IMG/VR virus record: IMGVR_UViG_3300017783_000049
Span: 1-46,095 of that record
DNA length: 46,095 nt
Source: a virus
Strand: one strand, 5' to 3'
The notes under the pieces were generated by a model. That model was not told the DNA's origin, ran no database searches, and saw nothing but the letters and a program-made list of their open reading frames with translations. Positions 32,089-43,448 of the stretch are shown in pieces; within the stretch, counting starts at the first letter, position 1; each line of letters begins with the position of its first letter. The position numbers and the translations under genes were made by a program.

Positions 32089-32502
32089 TTATACCTCAGA
32101 TAAAGCAGTGGTAATTAAAAAAACTTTTTGATTTGACGGGCCAATCTTTTGAAGGTTAGGGGGAGTCGTAAAAAATCCAAAATATTGCTCAGCACTTCCA
32201 GTCAATAAAGTGCTAGAAATATTAATTTTTGCAATTTGTCCCTCACCTCTGGCGATATCCCACTGCCTGAAGACAGAGTCTAAGCTAATCCAGTCGTCAT
32301 AACTTGCATACGCTGATATAGTAAATATCCTCTTCTGCCTTCTTACCGGGCCTGTTGCAATAGCGGCCCCTTGTGCTGTGTATTCAAAAGAAGCTTCTGA
32401 CAGATATTGGATAGGATAAGAGTCATCAGCAAAATTGTAAAATCTTACGAAGGTGCTGTTATATCTTAATTCTAAATAGTGATTATTTACCGGAACACTC
32501 AC
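32089..32502 (-). CDS. Probable minor tail (distal-tail-like) protein
   Basis: 137 residues, beta-rich, between the tape measure and the hub, which is the usual place of a distal-tail or tail-tip adaptor. ATG 32502 overlaps the tape-measure stop by four bases (ATGA); the stop lies two bases before the hub ATG. Visible strands include YLELRYNSTFVRFYNFADDS, YLSEASFEYTAQGAAIATGP and RRQKRIFTISAYASYDDWIS. No diagnostic motif; function from synteny. Confidence 0.72.
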   Translation of the reverse strand: MSVPVNNHYLELRYNSTFVRFYNFADDSYPIQYLSEASFEYTAQGAAIATGPVRRQKRIFTISAYASYDDWISLDSVFRQWDIARGEGQIAKINISSTLLTGSAEQYFGFFTTPPNLQKIGPSNQKVFLITTALSEV

Positions 32503-35500
32503 AGCCTCCCTCCTCTTCTTGCTTTCATGATATTAATATCAGTCAGAAGCTTGCTGGCATCCATTACTGGAGATTGACTTTGTATTGTTACATTATTAGT
32601 AATTCTCTGGGTGTCACCTCCTTTCATCATTGACCCCATTTGCTTAATTAGTGTTCCAGAAGGAACGATTCCAGTAACCCCTTGCGACTCTCTAGCCGGC
32701 TTAGCAGACCGTGTCGCTGCAGTGATAGATGCATTAATTTTTTGGTTTTTAATAAGCGTGCTTGTGTCGTTAGCATTTAGGACATATCCAGATTTTGGAG
32801 CCCTCCACTTAACGTTTCTAGCAGCAGGGAGAAGCGAAACCTTCCCTGAAGTGTCAACGAACGACTCTCGGCCTCCTCCATCGTTAACCTTGTAGGTGGC
32901 ACCACCAGTAACTGGACCGCCCGTTGCCCTGGAGCCGAAGGGGACTCCTTCCATTGCGGTTTTCAAGCTATTGGTTGCACTAATGGCTTTGCTGATATTT
33001 TTTAGAGAGCTCTCAGAATCAGTCCCCATTTTTTGGATGGCTGCACTTGTATTTCCAAACTCTGTATTCAGTTTTTGCACTTTGCCCTGCACATTAGAAA
33101 GGCCAGCATTCATTGTGTTGACGGATTCGCCAAGAGCGGCTTTCACCTTTTTCACATCTAATCCAAAGAAGTTTTGGTCAATAGCTTGTCCGTCTGTAGC
33201 GAGTTTCTCTGCACCAGTCTGCAATGCCTTGACAGAATCTTGAACCTCTTTCTTGCTTGCTGCCCCGGCATTTTTAATGTTGTCTAAGCCCTGCTGGCCA
33301 ATGCTCTCAACGTCACGCAAAGCTTCTACAGTTCCACTGCCCATCTCGTTAAGGGAATTCCGCAGGTCGCCGCCAATGTTTTGAACAAAGTTTTTAATGT
33401 CACTTAAATTACTCTCTGGAACTAAATTAGTTGGCTGAATACCTGCTGCTCTAAGTCTTGTATTTAAAGCTTGTTGAGCTTGTGAAACTTGTAGTTCAGC
33501 CGCAAAGTTTTCCACCCTAAACATTTGTTCATTCGCTTTCGAAAGCGTTTCAGTCATTCCTATCACTTTTTGCAGCGCCTGAATCCTGGCTTGATTCTGT
33601 GCAGTTGCAGGCTCGGCTTTTAGCATTTCTATTTGAGCCTGAGTCTCCAGGCTTATCATCTCCAACTTGTGCTGCTTCTCAGCCTGCTGAACCTGCCTTT
33701 TGATTTTATCAATTTCAAATTGCAACTCAAACATATCCTTCTCAAGCCTCAAGGCATCGTCTAAGATGCTTTTATCACCTGTAACCAAAAATTCAATTGT
33801 AGCAGCCTTATTTATGGCGGTCTTAAATGTATCAAAAGCAGAAGTGATCCCTGAGGTTAAGTCGTTGAAGCCACCTTTTTGTAGGTCTTTAAGTTTGCTA
33901 TAGCTCTGGATAAGTGTATCATTTTCTTGCTTAACTTCTTTAATCCTGTCGAGCATAGCTTTGCTCAATTCTTGCTCAGCAGCTTGGGCTTCTTTCGCTG
34001 CAGCGACTCGATCGGCGCCTAGTTCCCGAGCTCGGGTTCTCAAAGCAACTACATCTTGGCTACTTTCAGCCTGACGTTTGAAGTTGAGATCTATCTCCTT
34101 TTGGATGGCGTCTAAGTTAGATTTTGCGGCAGCTTCTCTAATAGCTGCATTCCTTACCTGTAATTGCCCTTCGGTTATTAAACCTTGATTAAGTTTTTCT
34201 TGTCCTGCTGCTCCCAAGGCGGCTGTTACTGCCTCTAATTTTTGCTTTCTCGTTTCTAATGCTTTATTAGAAGCTTCAAGTCTTTCTGTTAGAGTTCCGT
34301 CGCCGTCTGCCGCTGTGTGAATTATTCCGGTGAAACGTCGGGTGCCGTCCATCGCAACTTCTATTGCTGCTGCCTTCTCTAAGAAGGCATCCTTCTGCCT
34401 CTCTAATTGCTGGACTTCTTTTTCATTAACGTTGCCTGCTGCTTTCATCTTGTCTATCTGCTGCTGCAACGCGCCAGCCTGAGCTTCTAAGCTAGTTTTT
34501 ACAGCACCCGATCCTTTCCTGAATTTCACAAGATCTTCTGCTGACATCTTTGCAATATTGCCGTAGTCTAAGAAGCTTTGAGCTCCCTTTTTGTCAAGAA
34601 AATCACTAAGTCCTTTTAGCTGCTTTTGGTTTTGTGCCATGGCATCTTCAAAAGCTCGTTCCCTCCCAAATCTTTTTATACCAGAAACTAAAGATCCAAT
34701 CCCCTGTATTAATTGACGAGCAAAAGGTATTAAGCTTATAAACCCATCCTTCAACCTTTCTACAAAGGTAGTAGCCTTTTCTGATTCAATTCCTAGCGAT
34801 TTGAGAGTGCTCTCAGACTCTTTGATAGGCTTAATTAACGCTCCTATTGATTTCTGATATTCATTAAACGCGAGGGCGCCTGCGGCGGCGGCCAAGCCAA
34901 CGACAGCAAAGGCACCTAGACCTGCCGCTCCTATTCCAACTATCGCAGCCTTAGCACCGAGTGCAGCAGTTTTTATGGCGGCGGACTTGCCGGCGAGCAA
35001 TTGAGCACTGGCGGCTGCTGCCTTATTTACAGAAGCACCAGCATCTCCTGCTACTGGGGCGGCTGCTTTTTTTCTTAGGTCGATAAGACCCTTCAACTTG
35101 GAAGGGAAGTCACCTAATAAACCCTTAGATGTCGTTTTACCTAAACTCCTAAAGGATTGAGTCAATCCGTTAAAAAATCCAGAAACATCTCCCTTTATTA
35201 ATTTAAGAAGCGAACCTTTTAATTGTTTAACTGATATTCTAAACAACTGAAGAGTTTTATTGCCATTCCCTATAGACTCAGACATCTTGTCATTGACCTT
35301 CGTGAAGGCAATACTTGCTAGTCTTAAAGCAACTAGAGGCGCAAGAATCGCCGCGATCGGTCCAGCTAAATTAGAGAATGCTTGAACTAATGGTCCTAAA
35401 GGGGCCAATATAGTCCCTAAAGCTTTAGCTAAACCTATGAACAATTTCCCAAGATTTTTTATTGCTCCAGCAATACTGTTAAAAGCATTTATTAACGCTT

Positions 35501-36992
35501 GACCCCAGGGACTGTCTACGGCTTCTTGTATAAATTTCGCTACTGCATTTGACAGTTCTAGTATTGCACGGATCCCCGGCTCAGCAGCAGCACCAAGAGA
35601 TTCTAATGTCTTAGTTTGTATGTTTGCGATATTGTTTTGCAATTGCTGAACAGTAGCAGTACCATTCTCAATCTTCCCTTTTAGTCTCTCAGCGCCATTT
35701 TCCATCTTAAGGAAAGCGTCGACAAAGACAGTACTTGTGACTTGGCCGCTTTCAACAAGCTCCCCTAGTTTATCTATGCTGACGCCTAAAGCATCTGCGA
35801 ACTGAGTCCTGAAGGCACCATCAACTTCAGATATCTGTTGAGTAAGTTCTTCTGCTTGAAGTTTGCCTTTACTTAGAACCTGAGCGAACGCCTCTTGCAA
35901 TCGTCCTGATTCTTCTGTAGTCAATCCTAAGACTTGGGTTCTCGCCGTTAAGCCTTCGATGAATTTATTAGTATCGCTAGAACTGGAGCCAATAGCCCTT
36001 AGCGCTGGCACAATTCTTTTAAAAGCCTTTTCAACCTGTTCTACTGGAGCCCCTAGGTTGATAGCAGACTGAGCAGCAACATTGAATTTTTGTGCTGTTT
36101 CAACGGAAGATAACCCAACATTTTGCAGCGCTAATGAGAAGGCTTCTACTGATTTGGTTCTGTTTACGACTTGGTTTATCGCTCCACCCACTTGTCCAAA
36201 GGCAGAACTTATAGCAAGAATACCAGACTGAATAGTTCCGAGTTTTCCTAAAACACTTATAAAACTTGTGGTTTTTCCACTAGCCGCAGAGATTCTTTGG
36301 CCGTAGAGTTGCGCTGCTTTAGAAGCCGCAATCTGAGCTTTACTTCCTAGCTTAAGACTGGTAGCAAGCTTTAGTTCCTTGGCTTGCATGAACTGACGGC
36401 TTTGTACGCTCCCCTTCTGTATTCCTTGTGCCCTAAGCAGTGAACGCGCATTGACATCGATCTCATTAGTCAACCCACTGGTTTTTTGCTCTGCCAGTGT
36501 CAGCTTGCTTGCCTGAGCTTGCAGTGCTGCTCCAATCTCCTGTATATCTTGGACACTATTAGGCATTATGCCCTGTGCTCTTCGATGCTCCTCAGTAAGC
36601 TGCTGAACCCTTTCTGCTTGTATTTTATATCCACTAGTTAATGGCCCCAAGGCCCCTAATTCTTGCTTTGCTTGACTAAGCCTTTGTCTTGCAAGTGTCG
36701 CTCCTGCTGCTTCAAGCTTTAATTGCCTTTTATTTATTTGCTCCGACTTGCTGAGAGCCGTATTAAACTTATTGGTTGCCGTTGTTAAGTCTACGACTTG
36801 TCTGAAACCACCTGCATCCTTAACATTGAGGCCAATGTTTACCTCATTATCAAACTTCCCTATCGTCCCCCCAAACTTTGTAATTACTTCAGCAAGCTCT
36901 TCAAAAGTTCCTATAAAGCCTTGTATTGCCCTTCTGGCCGCTGCTGCATTTTTTGCTTCTACCGAAAAACCAATTTGGCGAGGATCTGCCAC
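32499..36992 (-). CDS. Tape measure protein
   Basis: 1,497 residues, starting at GTG 36992 with AAGGA six bases upstream. It is largely helical and Ala/Gln/Lys rich. Residues about 265-470 match the tape-measure domain seen in many phages (FNVAAQSAINLGAPVEQVEK, TEESGRLQEAFAQVLSKGKL, TQQISEVDGAFRTQFADALG). Hydrophobic segments lie at about 500-560 and 675-705 (AIVGIGAAGLGAFAVVGLAA), thought in this family to aid membrane passage. A long coiled coil covers about 1000-1200. No peptidoglycan hydrolase motif seen. At about 0.15 nm per residue the length predicts a tail near 225 nm, which supports a long-tailed siphovirus. Confidence 0.95.
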   Translation of the reverse strand: MADPRQIGFSVEAKNAAAARRAIQGFIGTFEELAEVITKFGGTIGKFDNEVNIGLNVKDAGGFRQVVDLTTATNKFNTALSKSEQINKRQLKLEAAGATLARQRLSQAKQELGALGPLTSGYKIQAERVQQLTEEHRRAQGIMPNSVQDIQEIGAALQAQASKLTLAEQKTSGLTNEIDVNARSLLRAQGIQKGSVQSRQFMQAKELKLATSLKLGSKAQIAASKAAQLYGQRISAASGKTTSFISVLGKLGTIQSGILAISSAFGQVGGAINQVVNRTKSVEAFSLALQNVGLSSVETAQKFNVAAQSAINLGAPVEQVEKAFKRIVPALRAIGSSSSDTNKFIEGLTARTQVLGLTTEESGRLQEAFAQVLSKGKLQAEELTQQISEVDGAFRTQFADALGVSIDKLGELVESGQVTSTVFVDAFLKMENGAERLKGKIENGTATVQQLQNNIANIQTKTLESLGAAAEPGIRAILELSNAVAKFIQEAVDSPWGQALINAFNSIAGAIKNLGKLFIGLAKALGTILAPLGPLVQAFSNLAGPIAAILAPLVALRLASIAFTKVNDKMSESIGNGNKTLQLFRISVKQLKGSLLKLIKGDVSGFFNGLTQSFRSLGKTTSKGLLGDFPSKLKGLIDLRKKAAAPVAGDAGASVNKAAAASAQLLAGKSAAIKTAALGAKAAIVGIGAAGLGAFAVVGLAAAAGALAFNEYQKSIGALIKPIKESESTLKSLGIESEKATTFVERLKDGFISLIPFARQLIQGIGSLVSGIKRFGRERAFEDAMAQNQKQLKGLSDFLDKKGAQSFLDYGNIAKMSAEDLVKFRKGSGAVKTSLEAQAGALQQQIDKMKAAGNVNEKEVQQLERQKDAFLEKAAAIEVAMDGTRRFTGIIHTAADGDGTLTERLEASNKALETRKQKLEAVTAALGAAGQEKLNQGLITEGQLQVRNAAIREAAAKSNLDAIQKEIDLNFKRQAESSQDVVALRTRARELGADRVAAAKEAQAAEQELSKAMLDRIKEVKQENDTLIQSYSKLKDLQKGGFNDLTSGITSAFDTFKTAINKAATIEFLVTGDKSILDDALRLEKDMFELQFEIDKIKRQVQQAEKQHKLEMISLETQAQIEMLKAEPATAQNQARIQALQKVIGMTETLSKANEQMFRVENFAAELQVSQAQQALNTRLRAAGIQPTNLVPESNLSDIKNFVQNIGGDLRNSLNEMGSGTVEALRDVESIGQQGLDNIKNAGAASKKEVQDSVKALQTGAEKLATDGQAIDQNFFGLDVKKVKAALGESVNTMNAGLSNVQGKVQKLNTEFGNTSAAIQKMGTDSESSLKNISKAISATNSLKTAMEGVPFGSRATGGPVTGGATYKVNDGGGRESFVDTSGKVSLLPAARNVKWRAPKSGYVLNANDTSTLIKNQKINASITAATRSAKPARESQGVTGIVPSGTLIKQMGSMMKGGDTQRITNNVTIQSQSPVMDASKLLTDINIMKARRGGRL

Positions 36993-37027
36993 TCTTTCAT
37001 CCTTAAAAGCTAAATTAGTCTGCCTAC

Positions 37028-37054
37028 AAAAAAAGAGGCCCCGTAAGGCCCCTT
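37028..37054 (-). terminator. Intrinsic terminator behind tail-tube gene
   Basis: On the minus strand, AAGGGGCC-TTACGG-GGCCTCTT forms an 8-pair stem with one G-U pair, followed by a run of seven Ts. It separates the tail-tube gene from the tape measure gene and probably lowers expression of the latter. Confidence 0.85.
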
Positions 37055-37075
37055 AAATATAAACCCTAGTTATTA

Positions 37076-37711
37076 TCAGGGGTTTGCGTCAATATTCAAT
37101 TTGTATGGACCATAGCCGGTCAAGGTTGCGCTCCAGGACACGATAGACCCAGCCTCAATGCTTTCACTATACCCTTGAAGTGTTCCATAACCGTAAACTT
37201 CCTCGTCCGTGCCTGTAGGGCCACAACGAGCAAATTTGACACGCAAGCTGTTAGCAACAGTATTTTGCTCTGTCAAGCGCAGCACTTGGTAGCCAGAATC
37301 GCGGAAGTCAGCTACGCCTTCAAGGCTGATACTCCAAGACTTGGAAGTAGCAATAGAAGTACTGAAGCCTGCTGTTTCGTCATCATAAGTGATGACATCT
37401 TCTGACGATGTATCAGTTTCAAGAGCAGCATTGGTCAGCCCATAAAGGCGGAAAGGACCATCGGTCCCGTCCATAGCGTAGGTGGTTCCTTCTACAGTGA
37501 AAACACCAGTAGCGGTATTAAAGGCGATTGTTGAGTTTGCTGCTGCAATGTTTCCTCCATCGCCAGCCGAAGAGGAATCAGTTTTTAAAAATGCTGCTGG
37601 CTGTGTTAAGCCTTTCGCTGCTGTGACACTAGGAAAAGCGATGTTAACCTGAGATGAGGCCACTGGGAGCATGTAGACATCATACCCAAAGGCTGCTGAA
37701 TAGTTTGCCAC
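37076..37711 (-). CDS. Major tail (tube) protein
   Basis: 211 residues. Start is GTG at 37711 (ANYSAAFGYDVYMLPVASSQ follows). It is beta-rich with many Thr, Ser, Gly and ends in a strand region SIVSWSATLTGYGPYKLNID typical of tube proteins (cf. SW..TL.G.G). Placement between the terminator-like gene and the tape measure, plus a strong terminator immediately after it, fits the most abundant tail protein. No sheath gene accompanies it. The upstream leader of about 100 bases contains the small hairpin CCGGA-ATGAA-TCCGG overlapping the start region, which might affect translation. Confidence 0.87.
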   Translation of the reverse strand: MANYSAAFGYDVYMLPVASSQVNIAFPSVTAAKGLTQPAAFLKTDSSSAGDGGNIAAANSTIAFNTATGVFTVEGTTYAMDGTDGPFRLYGLTNAALETDTSSEDVITYDDETAGFSTSIATSKSWSISLEGVADFRDSGYQVLRLTEQNTVANSLRVKFARCGPTGTDEEVYGYGTLQGYSESIEAGSIVSWSATLTGYGPYKLNIDANP

Positions 37712-37812
37712 GGATTCAAACCCCGGAATGAATCCGGTCGATACGACAATGTTAGGGATTCACCCCTCTTTAATAGAGTGCCGATCAGGAACACTATTGA
37801 TTCCCACAGTTA

Positions 37813-38721
37813 TTAAGGTGTAATTGTTAAAGTTTGAGTTACCACACCTTGTGTACTTTCTGCCTCTAAAGTAAAAGTAGTTGGAGTTGAAACTGTTACG
37901 GTGGTAGTACCACTGCTCGGCCAGTCATATCGGCCGTCTAGCCGTATCTCTTGAGCGAAGGAAGTCGCCCAGGCCAAGGTGTATTCGTTGGGATTGCTTG
38001 TAGCCGTAGAAGAGAATGACTCGATAGCAGGTTCAATTACTGCTATTTGTATCCCGCCAGTCTTTGTAGTAAAATCATTGCTAGCAGTAATGGTATAAGT
38101 CGTTGTCTGATTTACAGTTACCGCAGTAGTCCCGGTTGTTGCTATAGCTCCGACGCCTTGATCCATGGTCGCGACTGTCGTTTCGGTCAATGTCCATGTC
38201 AGGTCAACGCTACTGCCTGGAGCAACATTTAATAGACTTGCATTTAATGTAATAGCAGGCTCGGGACCGTAAACCGCCATACCTGCTGAAGTTAAAGGTT
38301 GATCTGCTGGGATGAGGACAAGTGTCTGAGCCCGAGCTCTCGCTCCTTCGCTGGTTTTTACAGTTTGTATAGAAGTTGAACCTTTGAATAATTCCATAAT
38401 TCTATGTGCCGCATTATTTAGATCTTTTCCTGTCGCCGGATCCCAGCAAATTAAAAATACCTTCCAAGTATTTACAAGTACTTCTGGGTCATCGGTAATA
38501 AACTCGACTGGCCTCCTGACATCGGAAACATCGTGTATCACACATTCTACGCCATTAATATCTGAGATTCTAGGAATATCCTGACCTGGAGTGTTTACAC
38601 TTATCGCATTTAAAGTTTGACCACCGTTTAGCTTATAGTTTCCAACATATCCAGAGAACTCAGCATCAGAGTCTAAGATTCTATAAATTAATCCCGGAGA
38701 ATCTGCGAAAACCTGGGACAT
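37813..38721 (-). CDS. Tail terminator-like protein with Ig-like C-terminus
   Basis: 302 residues. Residues 1-150 (GLIYRILDSDAEFSGYVGNY, VECVIHDVSDVRRPVEFITD, VFLICWDPATGKDLNNAAHR) are arranged as in tail-terminator/completion proteins that cap the tube. Residues 155-302 are two probable Ig-like domains (PAITLNASLLNVAPGSSVDL, TWTLTETTVATM, TTYTITASNDFTTK, then a second copy ending TFTLEAESTQGVVTQTLTIT). Ig-like additions are known on phage surface proteins and may help weak binding to cell surfaces. It lies directly upstream of the tail-tube gene. The terminator assignment is from position and pattern, so moderate. Confidence 0.7.
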   Translation of the reverse strand: MSQVFADSPGLIYRILDSDAEFSGYVGNYKLNGGQTLNAISVNTPGQDIPRISDINGVECVIHDVSDVRRPVEFITDDPEVLVNTWKVFLICWDPATGKDLNNAAHRIMELFKGSTSIQTVKTSEGARARAQTLVLIPADQPLTSAGMAVYGPEPAITLNASLLNVAPGSSVDLTWTLTETTVATMDQGVGAIATTGTTAVTVNQTTTYTITASNDFTTKTGGIQIAVIEPAIESFSSTATSNPNEYTLAWATSFAQEIRLDGRYDWPSSGTTTVTVSTPTTFTLEAESTQGVVTQTLTITP

Positions 38722-38863
38722 TTTTCTACGTTATCATTGCGTTCTAGTGTGCCATATAAGGAACAATAAAGGCAGATGCGGAAATGCTTATGACGTTCGA
38801 TCGAGTCATCGTTTCTTTGTTTCCGCAACAATGACAACGAGCCTCTTAATTTGGCCAAGAGAT

Positions 38864-39229
38864 ATGGCTAAAGATTACCTTTACAACCTAGAGGCTATGA
38901 ATTCAAAAGATGCTAAAAGGCTTTGGAGAAAAGCGATTAGAGAGGCCTGGAACAACCAATGCGCTTACTGTGGAGCAACTCCAATAGATTCAAAAAGTTT
39001 AACTCTTGACCATGTTAAGCCCAAATGTAAAGGAGGCGAGGATGTAACCAAAAATTGTATTCCAGCATGTCGGAGTTGCAATGCAAACAAAGGCAGCGAA
39101 AACTGGATTGCATGGTTCAGAATGCAACCATTTTACTCAATGGAGACAGAGATTCTGATCAAAGAGTGGCTTCGTACTGGAAGAATTGGCTCTTACCATT
39201 ACGAAACTTTTTACGAAAAAGTTAGCTAA
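38864..39229 (+). CDS. HNH homing-type endonuclease
   Basis: The frame can begin at GTG 38747 or ATG 38831, 38864 or 38897; I chose 38864 (MAKDYLYNLEAMNSKDAKRL), giving 121 residues, but the choice is uncertain. CAYCG and CRSCN form the two zinc-binding CxxC knuckles, and LTLDHVKPKCKGGEDVTKN is the HNH catalytic strand with the metal-binding Asp-His and a later Asn. It is the only plus-strand gene inside the structural operon, and its 3' end overlaps the tail-chaperone T region by eight bases. Free-standing HNH genes of this kind spread into phage genomes by cutting a related site; homing is the likely role. Confidence 0.9.
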   Translation: MAKDYLYNLEAMNSKDAKRLWRKAIREAWNNQCAYCGATPIDSKSLTLDHVKPKCKGGEDVTKNCIPACRSCNANKGSENWIAWFRMQPFYSMETEILIKEWLRTGRIGSYHYETFYEKVS

Positions 39230-39854
39230 TGACGTAACTAATAACGTCTTCTTCTGCAAAAGCTTTGCCATTTGCCTTCGGCAGTTGCATGTAAACCTCA
39301 AGACCGCAAGGAGATTTCATCTTTCTCCTTGCCCCACTAGCTGATTCTAGTCCGATAAACATCGACTTGATACTGTTCTCATGATTTTCCCTTGGGGCTA
39401 ATAGTATTGCGTCTTCGCAGATAAAGGCCAATAAGCTCGGAGCGTTTCCTTCTGAGGATTCTTTTAAAGCCTTGTATACAAACAATGCCCATGAAGGGAA
39501 TAGTTCCAATTCGACAAGAGCCATAGCAGCCGATCCATAAGACTGTGCTGGGCCGTCTTTGAAATCTTTTGGCTGAAACAGAAAAAAGTCCTCAATAGTG
39601 TAAGGCTCTCTTCTCTTCTTTGCGTCTCTGTTCAAATTGGCTGTCAAAGACGTTAGCAGCGCTATAGGCGCTTCATTGTTATGATATCGCAGTTGCTCTT
39701 TTTTCTTAAGATTCTGGAAGGCATCAACAACGTAAAGATAAGGCAAGCTCCAAAAATTAGAATAAGAGAACTCACTATCACCGGGATAACCGGATTTCAA
39801 CTCCCAGAATAAATACTCAAAATCTACAGTCTCTTGATGTTCTCCTCTCTTTAC
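39222..39854 (-). CDS. Tail assembly chaperone, -1 frameshift extension (GT-type)
   Basis: This frame has no good start: the first candidate is TTG at 39800, but the frame is open upstream through the stop of the preceding gene to a TGA near 39870. At 39854-39860 the upstream gene has GGGAAAG, the same heptamer as the lambda G/T site. A -1 slip there joins residue 183 of the upstream gene (ending DIVGK) to VKRGEHQETVDFEYLFWELK and on through 210 residues, giving a product of about 393. The T part is helical with a segment RREPYTIEDFFLFQPKD and a beta C-terminus. In lambda the fused form helps load the tape measure. Here it lies before, not after, the tube gene. Confidence 0.82.
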   Translation of the reverse strand, partial: VKRGEHQETVDFEYLFWELKSGYPGDSEFSYSNFWSLPYLYVVDAFQNLKKKEQLRYHNNEAPIALLTSLTANLNRDAKKRREPYTIEDFFLFQPKDFKDGPAQSYGSAAMALVELELFPSWALFVYKALKESSEGNAPSLLAFICEDAILLAPRENHENSIKSMFIGLESASGARRKMKSPCGLEVYMQLPKANGKAFAEEDVISYVIS

Positions 39855-40402
39855 TTTCCCACAATGTCAGCGACATCTTCTCCTCCGTCAGGATTCTGCT
39901 CCGAAGACTCGAGCTCTCCCATATATCCACGTTCCTCTTCATTGTAAAAAGCGGCCAGGGCGTCAATCATCTCTGGATGCTGGTCCATGGTGTCTTCAAT
40001 GCCCCACTCTGGATCGATTCTGCTGACAAGCAGGATGTTGGCACAAGCCAGATTTCGCTTGCTCGCTGTTTCAATCAAGGCCGCCATAATTGACCCGAGC
40101 TCTTCCGGATATTCTTCTTTAATTTTCATCGCAAATTTATTGTCGCTAACCCCTTGCACCGCTTCCATGATTGCAGAGTAACATTCTTCTACTGTCTTTT
40201 TTGTTTTGCTCGACAGTTTAGTGGCTAAAGCTACAGTCGTAGCGACTGTTTCGGCGCTTTGAGAGACCTGATCTACGAAAGCTTTTTCAGAAACATTCAA
40301 GAAACCTCTTCTTTCGATCTCGATAATCCCGATAGATTCGTTTCCGATTTTTTCAATAAAAGACTTAACTTTTGGTTTGACAATAAAAGGTAAAGTTCGC
40401 AT
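39851..40402 (-). CDS. Tail assembly chaperone, G-type
   Basis: 183 residues, ATG at 40402. The protein is helical and acidic (QSAETVATTVALATKLSSKT, EECYSAIMEAVQGV, ELGSIMAALIETASKRNLAC) and ends in a Gly/Asp/Glu-rich tail immediately before the slippery site, as lambda G-like chaperones do. It would be made alone most of the time and, after a -1 slip, as the first part of the long chaperone. The alternation of short and long forms along the tape measure during tail assembly is established for lambda; its use here is inference from the site and arrangement. Confidence 0.8.
   Translation of the reverse strand: MRTLPFIVKPKVKSFIEKIGNESIGIIEIERRGFLNVSEKAFVDQVSQSAETVATTVALATKLSSKTKKTVEECYSAIMEAVQGVSDNKFAMKIKEEYPEELGSIMAALIETASKRNLACANILLVSRIDPEWGIEDTMDQHPEMIDALAAFYNEEERGYMGELESSEQNPDGGEDVADIVGK
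39854..39860 (-). promoter_or_regulatory. -1 programmed frameshift site GGGAAAG
   Basis: On the minus strand the frame reads GTG GGA AAG TAA. The heptamer G-GGA-AAG allows both tRNAs to re-pair at GGG-AAA, exactly the lambda G slippery sequence, one codon before the stop. The -1 frame is then open for 210 codons. Confidence 0.85.
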
Positions 40403-40436
40403 ATGCTTGACAAAAGCACGCTAGTGTTCCAGAAAC

Positions 40437-41012
40437 TTACAGTTCAATCTTTTTATTCAACAACTCCATCGCTCGACTTTGTACTAACTCGTAAAAAGGG
40501 AATCGCTGAATACCATGACCACCAAAAATAACCGCATCTACCCAAGGTCGAGGAGGGACATATATTGATACCTTCGGGTTATATCCAGACTTAATATAAC
40601 CGCCGTACTGGACTAAGTCAGCATAAGGTTCATTGTATTGAATTATTATAGACTTCTTTCCACTGTCCCAAGAAACGTCTTTAGAGTCCCTAAGAGCGCC
40701 CGTATCTATAATGTCGCGAGTCGAGCCATCCCAAGGCCAAATAGACGACTCCATCGCCCTATCAAGGGCCTCAGATAGCAGAGGAATGATCTCTTCAGCC
40801 GCTTGATCAACGCATTCTCCGAAGATCTCCTCCAGCCCCTCTATAGTTTTAAGTAAATCATGGAATCTGCCAAGTACTTTATCAAGACCTATGCCTTTAA
40901 TCTCTGGGACAGGAACTGGTATCTTGAGATCTTCTTGCCTCTCAAGCTTTTTCATTTCTTGTTTTAATTGTTTTAAATTTTTAATAAATTTACGTACTGA
41001 TTTGTTCTCCAT
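40437..41012 (-). CDS. Neck / tail-completion protein (HK97 gp10-like)
   Basis: 191 residues. After a helical N-terminus (KSVRKFIKNLKQLKQEMKKL) the C-terminal half has DTGALRDSKDVSW, EPYADLVQYGGYI and PPRPWVDAVI, the DTG.LR, YA..VQ.GG and P.RPW pattern of HK97 gp10-like tail-completion proteins, which join head and tail. Ending at 40437, 34 bases before the G-like chaperone ATG. Family call from motifs, no search. Confidence 0.78.
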   Translation of the reverse strand: MENKSVRKFIKNLKQLKQEMKKLERQEDLKIPVPVPEIKGIGLDKVLGRFHDLLKTIEGLEEIFGECVDQAAEEIIPLLSEALDRAMESSIWPWDGSTRDIIDTGALRDSKDVSWDSGKKSIIIQYNEPYADLVQYGGYIKSGYNPKVSIYVPPRPWVDAVIFGGHGIQRFPFYELVQSRAMELLNKKIEL

Positions 41013-43166: not shown

Positions 43167-43448
43167 TCAAGCTCCTAGTCGAAGTTCTAATATTCTCCTT
43201 AGATTTCTAGTGATGTCCCGAGCCCCTACGTGCTCTTCTACAACAACATCATCATGATTAGTGACAGTTAAGACAGGAGTTGCTATAATCCCATATTTTG
43301 CTCCGATCTGAATCTCTTCTTCTGTCGCTACGCCTTCCTCGAGATTGACTTTTACTATTCTGTCGACTCTAGTGTCTCCAGTTTTTTCAATAAATTCGTC
43401 AACGACTTGACAAGGGCCACAAGCCGATTTGTGAAAGAGGTAGAGCAC
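43167..43448 (-). CDS. Thioredoxin-like protein
   Basis: 93 residues starting at GTG 43448. CGPC at residues 10-13 is the redox-active dithiol, and ATPVLTV supplies the cis-proline loop, both hallmarks of the thioredoxin fold; overall length is slightly short of bacterial thioredoxin (about 105). Helix HKSACGPCQVVDEFIEKTGD and strand DRIVKVNLEEGVATEEEIQI precede the cis-Pro. Phage thioredoxins can reduce host or phage proteins or assist polymerases; which applies is unknown. It has its own terminator. A link to the cysteine-rich hub is only a hypothesis. Confidence 0.88.
   Translation of the reverse strand: MLYLFHKSACGPCQVVDEFIEKTGDTRVDRIVKVNLEEGVATEEEIQIGAKYGIIATPVLTVTNHDDVVVEEHVGARDITRNLRRILELRLGA

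Follow-up and report, generated by a model that had tools for sequence, protein, structure and literature searches.

The window, that is, the whole stretch of DNA analysed here (IMG/VR record IMGVR_UViG_3300017783_000049 of a cyanophage-like virus, positions 1 to 46,095; 46,095 nt), most probably encodes two siphovirus tail assembly chaperones of the lambda G/GT type, the longer of which is made by programmed -1 ribosomal frameshifting (probability of about 94%). Such frameshifting is very probable because a slippery heptamer is kept in phase among the relatives, the second frame has no conserved start codon of its own, and this frame is under selection.

The Gene Pair and Its Probable Slip Site

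The pair and its junction consist of the following elements:

39851..40402, minus strand: zero-frame ORF of 183 aa with an ATG start and a conserved N-terminus, the putative G-like short tail assembly chaperone
39854..39860, minus strand: slippery heptamer GGGAAAG directly before TAA, in the phase G GGA AAG and kept in relatives
39222..39860, minus strand: -1 frame with a putative T-like domain, 212 aa from the heptamer, recognized by its open frame, its relatives, its synonymous changes and a weak match to Pfam Phage_tail_T
39798..39800, minus strand: TTG at codon 21, a false start for the second frame, which is CTA in the closest relative (L010)

The minus strand reads GTG GGA AAG TAA at 39862-39851, with the heptamer in the phase X XXY YYZ relative to ORF 40402-39851. 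In the -1 frame, a stop codon at 39869-39867 lies just upstream of the site and the frame is open from 39866 to the stop at 39224-39222. After GGG AAA, 210 sense codons follow in this frame, and the predicted fusion therefore has 183 + 210 = 393 residues, with the junction DIVGK-VKRGE. An earlier note, made from the letters alone, had claimed the correct phase of GGGAAAG directly before the stop, a -1 frame open for 210 more codons and a 393-residue fusion; the reading of the strand and the count of the frame agree with it on all three.

GGGAAAG is lambda's own slippery heptamer. It occurs seven times in the window against 6.7 expected, that is, at chance frequency, and the case thus rests on the phase, the place and the conservation of the site.

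In the proposed mechanism, most ribosomes would stop at TAA and release the 183-residue G-like protein. A minority would move back by one base at G GGA AAG, the peptidyl-tRNA and the aminoacyl-tRNA re-pairing on GGG AAA, and would read V-K-R-G-E onward for 210 codons to give the 393-residue GT-like fusion. By analogy with lambda, the tape measure protein would be coated by G-like protein in many copies, and tail tube subunits would be recruited through the T part of the few fusion molecules. The slipping itself, its rate and the chaperone role are what we infer from the arrangement of the two frames and their conservation.

The analogy draws on what is described for lambda in passages of one review (PMC5009743). 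There, about 30 molecules of gpG are produced for each gpGT, the product of frameshifting; both associate with the tape measure protein, tail tube subunits are brought in by the T part, and neither product is found in mature virions. The same passages describe tail chaperone frameshifting as broadly kept among long-tailed phages even though their sequence similarity is low (PMC5009743).

Conservation of the Heptamer among Relatives

A search with the second frame matched eight phage records, which represent S-CBS2, S-CRES1, S-CRES2, S-CRES3, and P-SS2. Five of the eight were read, one per phage, the other three being further records of S-CBS2 and P-SS2. A profile built from four phage sequences and the window retrieved 180 IMG/VR contigs, and the 80 best of these were taken. 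The resulting 85 loci (L005-L089) were chosen by the similarity of the second frame, the heptamer playing no part in the choice, and clustering at 90% protein identity reduced them to 56 clusters. In bacterial genomes, two short matches only (37 residues) were obtained, both in one genome.

A canonical in-phase XXXYYYZ heptamer, with the -1 frame open there, is located at the junction in 83 of the 85 loci (the five phages and the best 80 of the 180 IMG/VR contigs). Its conservation in homologues, which the earlier note had proposed as a check, is thus evident. By locus, the heptamer is GGGAAAG in 45 cases, AAAAAAG in 33 and GGGAAAA in five, and the loci L075 and L076, which belong to one cluster, carry GGAAAAG at the same spot. 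The respective numbers by cluster are 30, 21, 4, and 1. In other words, a canonical heptamer stands at the junction in 55/56 clusters, versus 6/9921 same-phase positions elsewhere in the upstream gene; the background in the second frame is 14/11496 positions (pattern [A/G]3-AAA-N, counted in the phase of the junction heptamer). The type of the heptamer differs between clades yet it stays slippery, which indicates that a nucleotide signal is kept, beyond the residues alone.

All five cyanophages have the heptamer in phase. The junctions of S-CBS2 and S-CRES1/2 differ from that of the window in having AAAAAAG in place of GGGAAAG, the latter being found in S-CRES3 and P-SS2. The stop codon of the zero frame follows the heptamer immediately in 24/56 clusters, one codon later in 12/56, and within 39 codons in all. 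P-SS2 (L008, 5998-6124) differs from the window in that its zero frame extends 39 codons past the slip site, and both frames are coding there.

It is highly improbable that the fusion arises because the RNA polymerase, and not the ribosome, slips on the run. The relatives with AAAAAAG offer a short A run to such an event, but bacterial transcriptional slippage is described, in part of the same source, for stretches of nine A or T (PMC5009743), and the GGG AAA run of the window is shorter than these. Moreover, the strict XXXYYYZ phase and the presence of GGGAAAG in 30/56 clusters fit tandem tRNA slippage, as in the ribosomal frameshifting preferred here.

An error of assembly or sequencing, or a recently broken gene whose two frames were formerly one ORF, was also considered, as the junction of this metagenomic virus contig is composed of short homopolymer runs (GGGAAAG). 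This reading is already refuted because the relatives share the frame relation: the same relation is found in 85/85 loci, isolate genomes included, and in none of the 85 do the two parts share a frame. The purifying selection on the second frame described below is a further argument against it.

Start Codons and Selection in the Second Frame

As in lambda G/GT, two ORFs stand in -1 relation and the second is without a conserved start of its own. In the window, the first ATG, GTG or TTG of the -1 frame is the TTG at 39800, at codon 21. Among the relatives, an ATG by codon 12 of the second frame is found in 3/56 clusters and any NTG in 8/56, at scattered positions; by codon 19, an NTG is present in 16/56. 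The conservation of the second frame starts at the heptamer, with K2 and L21 invariant in 56 sequences and W19 nearly so.

The earlier note had held that the second frame has no plausible start and that a plain gene caller would miss the fusion or split it at a false TTG. Both expectations are realized. The only early start, TTG 39800, is replaced by CTA in L010, a synonymous change in a protein that is otherwise almost identical, and this start can therefore not be general. In the GenBank records of all five cyanophages, the second gene starts internally, 41 to 70 codons past the heptamer. The note had also named, as an observation that would speak against frameshifting, an ATG start in the second frame of relatives that are without a slippery site; instead, the sites are present and the starts are not conserved.

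The same data bear on the view that the second frame is an independent gene, translated from within (at TTG 39800 or by re-initiation close to TAA), next to an incidental heptamer. The TTG at codon 21, the internal starts placed by the GenBank records and the NTG codons of 16/56 clusters are in line with this view, but it is very unlikely as an explanation: the TTG is CTA in the closest relative, the starts are scattered and rarely ATG (3/56 by codon 12), translation beginning at or beyond codon 21 would lose part of the conserved region that begins at the heptamer, and the heptamer of 55/56 clusters would be left unexplained.

The second frame is under purifying selection. In detail, 12 of its codons differ between the window and L010, and 11 of these 12 changes are synonymous in the -1 frame, where a share of 28% is expected (simple binomial P = 7e-6, window vs L010). 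In the other two frames, 5/13 and 0/13 of the changes between the same two sequences are synonymous.

The Two Proteins

An alignment of 55 sequences shows a conserved N-terminus in the G part, with the consensus MAxLPFVVxPR; cluster L072 was left out of the alignment owing to its incomplete N-terminus. No named family in Pfam or PHROGs was matched by this part.

The second frame of the window shows a weak match to Pfam Phage_tail_T (PF06223, minor tail protein T), with an E value of 0.02 and 15.8 bits, which is below the gathering cut-off of 25.9 bits. At E<=1, this family is matched by 22/56 cluster members, the best at 7.8e-5. The second frame also matches PHROG 34388 (E 3.7e-38, residues 45-207), a profile that carries no function and whose match is without the first 44 residues of the second frame.

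AlphaFold2 models of the two parts were confident, with pLDDT values of 88 and 94, and a C-terminal beta region is predicted in the T part. Among solved structures, no informative match to a tail chaperone was obtained, either by sequence profiles or by the folds of the models. In a viral model library, the top matches are entries of 177 aa and 181 aa; judged by their length, they look like the proteins of P-SS2 and S-CBS2. The library also holds two pairs with near-neighbouring accessions, A0A346A5Z8/Z9 and A0A510E8J5/E8E6, whose members match the T and the G model, respectively. On the basis of these model comparisons, each pair may represent the two halves of a split gene in a distant phage.

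Tail Module and Gene Order

The other genes of the region 32499-41012 are:

40437-41012: gp10-like completion protein gene, next to G in the module order (Pfam and PHROG searches)
38747..39229, plus strand: HNH endonuclease gene (Pfam HNH, E 4.7e-12), tail-to-tail with the T frame with an 8-base overlap
37813-38721, minus strand: unnamed ORF of 302 aa, residues 159-240 of which match a PHROG virion structural protein (E 2e-5)
37076..37711, minus strand: gene for the major tail (tube) protein, which matches the tail protein family PHROG 38654 at E 6e-76 and, with a score above the cut-off, Pfam Phage_tail_2 at E 2e-5
32499..36992, minus strand: tape measure protein gene (Pfam TMP_3, E 1.3e-25, and PHROG tape measure families)

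The order is thus gp10-like, G, T, antisense HNH, ORF 37813, tail tube, and tape measure. Judged by these gene matches, the surroundings of the pair are a tail module of the siphovirus type. As in lambda, the pair precedes the tape measure gene, and a tape measure match is located downstream in 29/56 clusters, the remaining clusters having short flanks or weak matches. The pair precedes the tail tube gene as well, both in the window and in 53/56 clusters, and it is accordingly not placed between tube and tape measure genes. Of the three clusters outside the 53, the contig ends first in two, and the third is P-SS2, where the tube homologue is found ~17 kb further on.

The ORF at 37813-38721 has 302 aa in the window versus about 145 aa in S-CBS2 and the S-CRES phages. 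This length and the position of the PHROG match suggest that the window copy carries an added C-terminal domain.

Comparison with Lambda and the Cyanophages

In lambda, the G/GT pair sits between the tail tube and the tape measure genes. The window shares with it a short ORF that ends just past an in-phase heptamer, a T-like extension in the -1 frame, and a pair that belongs to the tail module and precedes the tape measure gene. On the contrary, the G part of the window is without a named family, its T part combines a modeled C-terminal beta region with a weak Phage_tail_T match, and the pair stands upstream of the tail tube gene.

With regard to the cyanophages S-CBS2 (gp015/gp016), S-CRES1/2/3, and P-SS2, the second frame is homologous in all of them (about 35 to 44% identity), and homology of the first frame was detected by BLAST in S-CBS2 and S-CRES3. 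All of them have the order gp10-like, G, T, HNH of the window.

No description of a tail-gene frameshift in cyanosiphoviruses turned up in the literature listings that were searched; in a term search, the main text of the P-SS2 genome paper (PMC2784084) had no occurrence of "frameshift". Frameshifted tail chaperones are well known in tailed phages and the general picture of tail building in these phages is unchanged; the present case concerns a misannotated family with an odd, fixed gene order. It offers a likely reading for a gene pair whose second half starts too late in five cyanophage records, and a proposed function for the members of PHROG 34388. In addition, the 56 diverged natural versions of the site, which include three types of canonical heptamer and vary in the distance to the stop, could be used for testing what sets the frameshift rate in cyanobacterial ribosomes.

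Candidate Stimulators of the Slip

In the window, the 101 bases from TAA fold no better than shuffled sequences (z -0.49). Across the 56 clusters, 60-base windows just past the site exceed by a little the stability expected from the G+C trend (-1.8 +- 0.5 kcal/mol). Windows elsewhere, however, are nearly as stable (-1.6 at +320), so that nothing can be drawn from the folding past the site and a downstream stimulatory structure is not supported.

Upstream of the heptamer, an SD-like core (AGGA, GGAG or GAGG, 17 to 6 bases before it) is present in 32/56 clusters versus 276/1344 nearby same-phase positions. This region is rich in Glu codons, and the synonymous-codon test of the core is weak (GAG over GAA, at one of several positions, P = 0.03). 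The core is missing upstream of the site in the window. The sequence pattern is therefore suggestive of an upstream SD-like stimulator in the relatives only.

The Antisense HNH Gene

The antisense HNH gene just after T has the same place and strand in 56/56 clusters (from the five phages and the best 80 of the 180 contigs), and its Cys, His, and Asn motif is conserved across them. In the P-SS2 record GQ334450, no feature is annotated at its position. The gene is a neighbor of the pair and lies outside the frameshift element itself. Its family matches 156 phage records, mostly of cyanophages, and since it is so common there, the gene may simply be a stable element, either selfish or linked to packaging.

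A different proposal is that, in this cyanosiphovirus-like family, the pair has lost its usual place beside the tail tube gene and become fixed next to the antisense HNH gene, whose convergent transcript would restrain the T end of the mRNA. This is very unlikely, but if true, the HNH transcript would be a second control on the ratio of G to GT, or a time switch for tail assembly.

Other Features of the Window

Rfam and tRNA scans of the window gave no matches. At 43167-43448 on the minus strand, there is a small thioredoxin- or glutaredoxin-like ORF, with a CGPC motif read by eye. In S-CRES1, a glutaredoxin-like gene is also annotated upstream of the tail genes.
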